From Clostridia bacterium (GTDB lineage: Bacteria > Bacillota > Clostridia > Oscillospirales > CAG-272), in NCBI GenBank assembly GCA_017482355.1, contig JAFUNJ010000011.1, positions 1 through 40,573 on the forward strand: 40,573 bases of DNA, given 5' to 3'. A program made the translations under genes and the position numbers. The notes below the pieces were generated by a model, which saw nothing but the letters and a program-made list of their open reading frames with translations, had not been told where the DNA came from and searched no databases. Each line of letters begins with the position of its first letter. Position 1 is the first letter of the stretch. Positions 2-1,408 of the stretch are shown here, piece after piece.

Positions 2-1084
2 ATCGGTGCTTTTGCCCTTTATGGGTACAAAAAGGACCCCGACCAAAAGGGGCATCTGATCATCGACGAGGAAGCCGCCGCTGTTGTACGTGAGGTGTTC
101 ACACTCTTTTCCCAAGGCTACGGCAAAACCGCAATCGCCCGTATGCTCAATGACAGAGGCATTCCCAATCCAACCGAATACAAGCGTCTTAAGGGATTGC
201 GCTACAAACAGCCTAAAGCCCGGAACAGCACCCTTTGGAAATACTTCGCAATTTCCGATATGCTGGTAAATGAGATCTACATCGGTAATATGGTGCAGGG
301 CAAATACGGCAGTATTTCCTACAAGACCAAGCAGAACAAGCCTCGCCCCAAAAGCCAATGGTACATTGTGGAAGGCACTCATGAGCCCATCATCGACCGT
401 GAGCTTTGGGACAGGGTGCAAAAGATGGTACAGGAAAGAGCGAAGCCTTTTGACGTTGGCACCATCGGTCTATTTGCAAGGAAGGCTCGCTGTGCCAATT
501 GCGGATATGTGATGCGCTCCTCCAAAAATCGAGGCAAGCACTATCTGCAATGCTCTAACCGTCACGTGGCGAAGGATGCCTGCATTGGTTCCTTTATCTC
601 GGTTGATAAGCTGGAGCAGATGGTCATTGACGAGTTGAACTGCCTTTCCGAGGAGTATCTGAACAAGGACGATTTGGAACGGAAGATCGAGTTTTGCAAC
701 AATCTGCAAGCGCAGAAAGACAGCATTCTCAAAAATATTGCTACTTACGAAAAGCGTGTTGCGGAATTGTCCAAGGGTATTCGGGAACTGTACATGGATA
801 AGGTCAAAGGACTAATCAGCGGGGCTGATTATACAGAGATGTCCAAGGACTTTATTGCAGACCGTGACCGCCTTGAAAAACTGATTTCCGATGGGCGTAA
901 GCAGATCGAAGAAATCGAGGTAAAAATCGAAGTCGGCGACAACCGCAGAGAGATCATTGAGCGTTACACAAACCTTAAACACCTCACCAGAGAGATGGTT
1001 GAAATCCTCATTGACTACATTTCCGTAGGCAAGAGAATTCCCAAAACAAACGACGTCCCCATCGAAATTCACTGGAATTTTTGA
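2..1084 (+). CDS. Large serine recombinase, C-terminal part (N-terminus outside window)
   Basis: Open reading frame entering from the left edge and ending at TGA 1082-1084. The visible part begins inside the 'recombinase' DNA-binding domain (GYKKDP, then VREVFTLFSQGYGKTAIARM and LNDRGIPNP, typical of this family). A zinc ribbon follows with two CxxC-like pairs (CANC around 492-503, then C...C around 550-585), and then a long charged coiled coil (about 640-960) and the C-terminal tail. This is the domain order of SpoIVCA/phiC31-type large serine integrases, which catalyse site-specific recombination between attP and attB. The catalytic N-terminal resolvase domain, with its serine, lies outside the window, so activity cannot be judged. 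The 3' end sits about 95 bp from a cotJC fragment, which suggests that the element it mobilises ends here. Confidence 0.93.
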   Translation: MGAFALYGYKKDPDQKGHLIIDEEAAAVVREVFTLFSQGYGKTAIARMLNDRGIPNPTEYKRLKGLRYKQPKARNSTLWKYFAISDMLVNEIYIGNMVQGKYGSISYKTKQNKPRPKSQWYIVEGTHEPIIDRELWDRVQKMVQERAKPFDVGTIGLFARKARCANCGYVMRSSKNRGKHYLQCSNRHVAKDACIGSFISVDKLEQMVIDELNCLSEEYLNKDDLERKIEFCNNLQAQKDSILKNIATYEKRVAELSKGIRELYMDKVKGLISGADYTEMSKDFIADRDRLEKLISDGRKQIEEIEVKIEVGDNRREIIERYTNLKHLTREMVEILIDYISVGKRIPKTNDVPIEIHWNF

Positions 1085-1182
1085 TATGTTGCACTTATGA
1101 GGTTGCAGCTACCCAAAATTCGCGATCCCGAAAACCCGCATAAATACTGGGTTTTTGAGATCTGTCGTTCTTACACAGTTGC
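1085..1182. other. Candidate element/chromosome junction (att site region)
   Basis: This segment of about 98 bp separates the recombinase stop codon from the point where CotJC similarity begins (AAEQKAR, from about 1182). Its translation shows no CotJC character, so the right-hand recombination junction should lie near 1175-1182. Large serine recombinases usually have an attachment half-site right beside their gene. The exact core dinucleotide cannot be fixed without the left junction. The location is inference from the break in similarity. Confidence 0.5.
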
Positions 1183-1384
1183 AGCAGAGCAGAAGGCGAG
1201 AACGACCTACGATAACATTCTCAAGCTCGTCGACGATCCCGACGTCATCGCGCCGATACGCTTCCTGCGCCAGCGCGAAATCGTGCATTTCCAGAGGTTC
1301 GGAGAAGCCCTCGGAATGGTACAGGATCAGCTCGATAGCAAGAATTTCTACTACTTCAACCCCGCCGACAAACGCGGATGCTAA
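1097..1384 (+). pseudogene. cotJC: 3' fragment of cotJC (spore coat manganese-catalase-like protein)
   Basis: Open frame of 95 codons. From about residue 29 onward (AAEQKARTTYDNI, LVDDPDVIAPIRFLRQRE, IVHFQRFGEALG) it matches the C-terminal third of CotJC/manganese catalase family proteins, which are normally about 190-200 residues. The RQREIVHFQRF stretch carries the Glu/His metal ligands of the second half of the di-manganese four-helix bundle. The first 28 codons are not CotJC and probably belong to the inserted element. The ATG at 1097 has no convincing ribosome binding site. The frame and stop are intact and a terminator follows immediately, so the fragment is well preserved. It is either a recent disruption or the 3' exon-like half of a gene that is rejoined on excision. 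Confidence 0.75.
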
Positions 1385-1408
1385 AAAAGAGCCGAACGGC
1401 TCTTTTTT
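1383..1408 (+). terminator. Rho-independent terminator of cotJC
   Basis: GAGCC-GAAC-GGCTC stem with A6 before and T6 after, starting at the stop codon of the cotJC fragment. It is symmetric enough to work in both directions. Confidence 0.85.

Follow-up and report, generated by a model that had tools for sequence, protein, structure and literature searches.

The stretch analysed here, called the window below, comprises 40,573 nucleotides (bases 1-40573) and forms the left end of contig C8 of a metagenome-assembled genome (MAG; G000, 22 contigs, 77.5% complete) of a Clostridia bacterium. It begins with an open frame (2..1084, +) that runs off the contig start and whose 360 residues make up the C-terminal portion of a large serine recombinase (LSR), as judged from its Pfam domains (Recombinase, 97.8 bits; Zn_ribbon_recom, 45.4; DUF4368, 28.1; all above their cut-offs) and from a tree of 31 LSRs, in which it falls inside the group that we call lineage A. 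The N-terminal domain is missing because the contig starts there; the Resolvase, Recombinase and zinc-ribbon domains are all found in a full-length relative (L139). The next stretch, 1085..1180 (+), has 25–32% identity over 60 bp to six intact relatives and is thus not cotJC; we assign it as the right end of the element, that is, the element arm of attR, and in the genome G017, which has a complete element, the arm of attR is similar to it. The crossover core GCAGCAGA (1181..1188, +), which is common to attL and attR in relatives, starts the 3′ part of cotJC (1181..1384, +; residues 134–200 and the stop codon), as delimited by tblastn, DNA comparison and Pfam (Mn_catalase, 37.3 bits against a cut-off of 27). 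Similarity to cotJC sets in at codon 133/134 (1178/1181) and ends with residue 200 (1381), the stop codon occupies 1382-1384, and the cotJC terminator hairpin, AAAGAGCC-GAAC-GGCTCTTTTTT, read from the sequence and conserved in the same-genus genome G002, follows at 1386..1408 (+).

From the comparison with the intact cotJC of G002 (L003), it is clear that the junction between the LSR element and cotJC is abrupt and falls within codons 134–136. The 3′ part in the window has 92% DNA identity to this gene over 195 nt, the identity extends through the terminator hairpin, and the two proteins are identical from residue 135 on, residues 133–134 being different; 5′ of 'GCAGAGCAG' the identity is 30%, which is the background level. 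The uninterrupted site is visible in the intact cotJC alleles of G002 and of a second genome of the genus, G007. The local features on which the original prediction was built are therefore confirmed, namely a recombinase that ends about 96 bp before an intact, in-frame 3′ part of cotJC (1084 to 1181), an abrupt onset of CotJC similarity near 1182, and a preserved frame, stop codon and terminator. Directly after the terminator the G002 sequence diverges from the window, in which a 287-residue ORF with no Pfam match lies downstream of cotJC (1481-2344, −).

attR alone of the two junctions is visible in the window. Neither the 5′ half of cotJC nor a second cotJC was found in this 77.5% complete MAG with protein and Pfam queries, and G002 DNA upstream of and including the cotJC start (the cotJAB region) had no match there in a search run without a positive control. 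We attribute the absence of the 5′ half from the assembly to the contig beginning inside the recombinase and to the incompleteness of the MAG. None of the five resolvase matches in the genome resembles the missing N-terminal part of the recombinase; SpoIVA is present. Two other contigs of the genome (G000:C3:90-1829, L214; G000:C20:39-1808, L215) likewise begin directly at an LSR gene, and in the tree these two LSRs stand nearest to lineage A; by eye, no split gene was recognised beside the other recombinases of this genome, L214 and L215 included.

The junction in the window is one of four sites at which cotJC is cut across genomes: site C near residue 28 (GGPDGE), site B near residue 61 (I/V-G-T-E-E), site A, that of the window, at residues 134–136 (AAEQKAR), and site D near residue 173 (QRFGEA). 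When the window recombinase was scanned against the contigs of 84,980 species genomes, 338 relatives were obtained, the best 80 of which (75–98% identity) were kept. A site-A half of cotJC lies within 600 bp of the recombinase end in 74 of these best 80 of 338 (tblastn). In 64 loci it is the 3′ half and shares the strand of the recombinase, which is the arrangement of the window; in 10 (L090, L091, L093, L095, L097, L119, L122, L131, L144 and L145) it is the 5′ half, facing the recombinase, so that in these the element would lie in the opposite orientation. The six exceptions among the 80 are L081, with just 89 bp of sequence beyond the recombinase, L099 and L107, with an attP-like site after it, and L094, L146 and L155. 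Both cotJC halves are present farther out in L107, where the attP-like site is located between the recombinase and the 3′ half (L107:6161-13947), as if site A were occupied by two tandem elements. Seven loci are on viral contigs, with an adjacent cotJC half in five, a half at 3.3 kb in L157 and none in L163 (38% identity). No intact attP was seen in the scan of viral contigs, and the phage records retrieved with the lineage-A recombinase (715, all below 60% identity) or with CotJC (11, some with a partial cotJC) named no phage as a user of site A.

The genomes reached via window-type recombinase loci (13, including isolates; two, those of L077 and L078, are MAGs) all hold 5′ and 3′ pieces of cotJC (the stretch 70–131 was not found in G134), and none of the 13 has an intact cotJC, so that the second complete copy considered in the original prediction is absent from all of them. 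In G017, G061, G076, Agathobaculum massiliense and Blautia sp. An249, for example, the 5′ half is found where it was anticipated, beyond the element on the strand of the 3′ half, and on one contig with it.

Joining the halves at the core gives an open frame across site A in all 13 loci with both halves (L106, L124 and L136 were joined with motif anchors). A whole protein results from a single join in seven of them (L078, L087, L106, L107, L124, L139 and L147), and in the remaining six cotJC has a further cut elsewhere. A direct repeat at both junctions, as foreseen, measures 4 to 18 bp in most relatives; the core is exactly GCAGCAGA in A. massiliense, Amazonia massiliensis and G061, GA or CAGA alone in some others, and GA alone in G128. 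The least common core is thus the GA of the Glu136 codon (window 1187-1188). In alignments to solved Mn catalases this residue, which we take to be a metal ligand, coincides with a conserved Glu; the whole CotJC of a relative aligns to these structures, and its score with the NCBIfam equivalog ManCatBAC is 90.5, below the cut-off of 350. The joined CotJC products run to about 200 residues in relatives: 225 in A. massiliense (three pieces on a 3.2-Mb contig), 211 in Blautia sp. An249 (three pieces), 200 in Amazonia massiliensis, and 200 in Pseudoflavonifractor sp. 524-17 (sites A and D), in which site A shares GA only and the automated choice of core misplaces some residues at that junction. 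The elements in loci with both site-A halves range from 4.0 kb (L105) to 10.1 kb (L118), and larger ones of 40, 52 and 164 kb are present in G017, A. massiliense and Amazonia massiliensis, respectively. Since the halves in relatives are on the same strand, in frame and bounded by a short shared core, attL × attR recombination would restore an open cotJC. The halves, repeats and joins of the relatives hence support the reading of the original prediction that an intervening element splits this gene.

Two MAGs seem to contain the joined and the interrupted form side by side. One contig of G032 is joined across site A and leaves cotJC at site D, a second contig shows the reverse, with the interruption at A and the join at D, and the stretch between the two sites is identical in both; in G037, a contig that ends exactly at site D overlaps a joined-gene contig by exactly 141 bp, in the manner of an assembly-graph fork. 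Either pattern could stem from excision or from a mixture of strains. As for cargo, the 40-kb site-A element of G017 (L056:1358-17501, L057, L058:1-3738) looks like a defence island, carrying type III restriction-modification genes, a DrmD-like helicase, a defence reverse transcriptase-like protein, a SIR2-type defence protein, an OLD-like ATPase and a second LSR; searches of 19 of its 31 ORFs with Pfam or PHROGs named no phage structural or lysis gene. Small elements carry, beside the recombinase, an Na/Pi symporter, a GmrSD-type protein or an AlbA_2 protein.

The LSRs at the four sites form separate groups in the tree of 31 (A, 13; B, 6; C, 4; D, 3), each group taking one side of a branch with a support of 99–100, in a tree that has several long branches and a bootstrap not fully settled; identity between groups is 20–33%. 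At least four recombinase lineages have thus converged on cotJC. A fifth, unrelated LSR type lies beside a site-B 3′ half in G057 (L054:1554-3170, −), and the site-B recombinase frame of G048 (L053:8980-11334, −; 785 residues) has a DNA alkylation repair domain at its C-terminal end.

The extent of these interruptions was surveyed in the host's family, using 86 genomes (the host's own included, the others at least 95% complete), with a cotJC match of any kind in 74 and an orthologue of at least 46% identity in 73. Among these 73, a full cotJC copy is present in 41 (two of them have partial ones as well) and lacking in 32, and in 31 species (about two fifths) cotJC was found solely in pieces that end at the four sites, a single piece being all that was found in some of them, the host's own genome included. 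On inspection G102 is a site-A case; G114, nominally cut at site D, runs into a stop shortly after the site and was left out of the count. All pieces found are on one contig, in order and on one strand, in G017, G061, G076, G081, G085, G088, G111 and G124, and two or three interruptions are present in G017, G034, G067, G082, G094, G100, G105 and G109. The pieces of G082, located on three contigs, give 199 residues when joined over three junctions (cores of 18, 12 and 8 bp); the site-C join of G105 has a core of 4 bp, and for the site-B join of G058 no clear exact core was found. In G016 the site-C halves lie on opposite strands of one contig (G016:C3:54036-54548, +, and 162493-162588, −), so that excision could not rejoin cotJC as assembled. 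SpoIVA served to check for the effect of broken contigs: 47 of 59 relatives, counting the host's own genome, have it, always as a single match that spans 217 or more of 237 positions.

In a region that the contig of the window does not reach, the lineage-A recombinase is preceded in 49 loci by a conserved ORF of some 48 residues, whose stop codon lies at a median of 73 bp before the recombinase start (the L114 match is a wrong ORF); this ORF has no Pfam or NCBIfam match. The pattern ATA-N16/17-CATAnnnT, which resembles the sigma-E consensus, is found upstream of this small ORF in 37 of 49 loci, where shuffled sequences give an expectation of 0.4 (23 of 28 once near-copies are removed), and upstream of the recombinase in 1 of 65, against 0.4 expected. 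A sigma-A-like pattern has the reverse distribution (44 of 65 upstream of the recombinase, against 1.7 expected; 2 of 49 upstream of the small ORF), both patterns having been defined after the sequences were seen. The sigma-E-like pattern also occurs upstream of spoIVA (4 of 18, against 0.1 expected), and upstream of cotJA in 0 of 12. A SpoIIID-like box (29 of 49, against 17.7 expected) was rejected as too weak. An inverted repeat, ACAAGCTGTTTTC ... GAAAGCAGCTTGT, conserved across loci (for example L090, L093 and L122), flanks the sigma-A-like −10 box upstream of the recombinase and is perhaps a repressor site or an RNA hairpin. From its position and its promoter pattern we infer that the small peptide is a candidate directionality factor of the lineage-A recombinase.

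Our main reading, to which we give a probability of roughly 0.7, is that the window starts inside an LSR-integrated element lodged in cotJC at site A, in the Glu136 codon, that this element is excised in the sporulating mother cell, and that cotJC serves it as a safe harbour. cotJC is a mother-cell coat gene, for a manganese catalase of the spore coat. A mobile element would be integrated by its LSR at the fixed site A; in relatives, unrelated LSR lineages take sites B, C and D, with up to three elements per cotJC gene. The small peptide, made from the sigma-E-type promoter, would act as the directionality factor. The element would then be excised in the mother cell during sporulation and CotJC made there; with the factor produced from such a promoter, the forespore would keep the element while the mother cell makes CotJC, and defence islands and other cargo would have a safe place in the gene. 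Of the ways in which the system may work, we regard excision in the sporulating mother cell as the most likely.

A different view is that these are ordinary mobile elements for which the conserved cotJC is simply attB, the gene being dispensable and lost for as long as the element is present, and excision serving transfer only, unlinked to sporulation. Integrases often choose conserved motifs, and all four cotJC sites lie in such motifs; the elements also move between distant hosts and carry cargo such as defence genes. The recombinases are more alike than the cotJC parts, in a comparison made on 32 codons with some rows misregistered, which suggests that the elements move between species and that the insertions are often recent, so that intact frames are no proof of use. 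Moreover, the coat of C. difficile is reported to remain largely normal when two CotJC paralogues are knocked out (PMC11222575), the paralogues thus being not vital to that coat, and loss of CotJC may accordingly be tolerated. About two fifths of the family's species have a split cotJC, yet the 3′ parts are open up to the REIxH motif in 67 of 68 loci, the remaining one being cut by its contig, which speaks against loss of the gene. Such open frames in themselves fit a reversible and a young insertion alike, and a test of kept frames for selection after insertion was dropped as proof of use, with few usable pairs, mostly saturated synonymous sites and misregistered rows (median dN/dS 0.136 for split and 0.122 for intact genes, high values being traced to misregistered rows). 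Since at least four LSR lineages on one gene and a sigma-E-like promoter at the small ORF likewise speak against elements unlinked to sporulation, we consider this view unlikely, though deserving of serious attention.

Two further explanations carry little weight. The window is the end of a MAG contig and several of the relatives' pieces are also at contig ends, as would be expected if chimeric contigs, or contig ends falling in cotJC by chance, had produced the pattern; however, the same junction recurs in 74 of the 80 loci (best 80 of 338), it lies inside long isolate contigs such as that of 3.2 Mb in A. massiliense, and eight family genomes have all pieces ordered on one strand of one contig. 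An assembly artefact is refuted for the class of split-cotJC loci, and overall its probability is close to nil. The pieces might instead be used as they are, the 3′ piece being made as a short protein of its own whose start codon lies within the arm of the element. There is an ATG at 1097 in the arm, in frame with the 3′ piece (a 95-residue ORF), and in-frame arms are seen at some other loci; but each piece has just some of the conserved Mn-catalase motifs, and in other attR arms a stop or a different frame precedes the core, which makes use of the separate pieces very improbable.

Excision in the mother cell, the reading that we prefer, has precedents. Interrupted genes named in the available portions of the literature are sigK, spoVFB, spoVR, spsM, gerE and yabG (PMC6957869, PMC10747680). 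In SP-beta, which splits spsM of Bacillus subtilis, sprA is expressed vegetatively and has a predicted sigma-A site, and sprB, with a mother-cell promoter, is the timing factor, according to the sections of the reports at hand (PMC4191935, PMC6957869). As described there, SP-beta has an LSR with a sigma-A-type promoter, a small timing factor, the order rdf-int-attR and a split mother-cell gene (PMC4191935, PMC6957869); the cotJC elements have a similar layout, their small factor and its mother-cell promoter being candidates. The full-length lineage-A recombinase also matches SprA/YokA structures over most of its length, although its identity to SprA is remote, the target gene is another, and the search of 19 of the 31 ORFs in the G017 element brought up no phage structural gene. 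The gin element in gerE of Bacillus cereus ATCC10987 is, in the accessible part of its description, likewise a non-phage island with restriction-modification genes and more than one LSR that splits a mother-cell gene (PMC5595907); it differs in gene and site, and in being one element per gene, against up to three in cotJC. Similarly, skin in sigK (B. subtilis and C. difficile), vfbin in spoVFB, the spoVR element and yin in yabG each have, as far as the excerpts available on them go, their own serine recombinase and a split sporulation gene that excision rebuilds; in cotJC, by contrast, there are four sites, each with a different LSR lineage. The phi027 prophage of C. difficile R20291 is also a mobile element adjoining a CotJC-type gene, but the available part of that paper (PMC11222575) places this gene (ORF 1465, 678 bp) downstream of attR and makes no mention of a split. 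No report of cotJC as an interrupted gene was found in the literature searched, parts of which were available as excerpts and whose scope left out preprints and most subscription journals. The kind of system is known; what appears to be new is cotJC as the target, its four sites, the convergence of recombinase lineages on it, and its interruption by two or three elements at once.

The same observations can be extended beyond the window, and we lean slightly towards a broader proposal: that cotJC in much of the gut Clostridia is a gene assembled at the DNA level from up to four pieces, through at least four independent recombinase lineages, with all the elements excised in the mother cell and kept in the forespore, so that the gene would be a harbour for defence islands and other cargo without a germ-line cost. 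If true, a 600-bp gene that is targeted repeatedly by unrelated recombinases would constitute a natural test of why integrases favour genes used only in doomed cells. The system would also yield recombinases for four different sites, a promoter together with the candidate directionality factor that it drives, and carriers in culture on which the proposal can be examined. DNA excision as a programmed part of sporulation would then be common in gut Clostridia, cotJC being in pieces in about two fifths of the species in one family.
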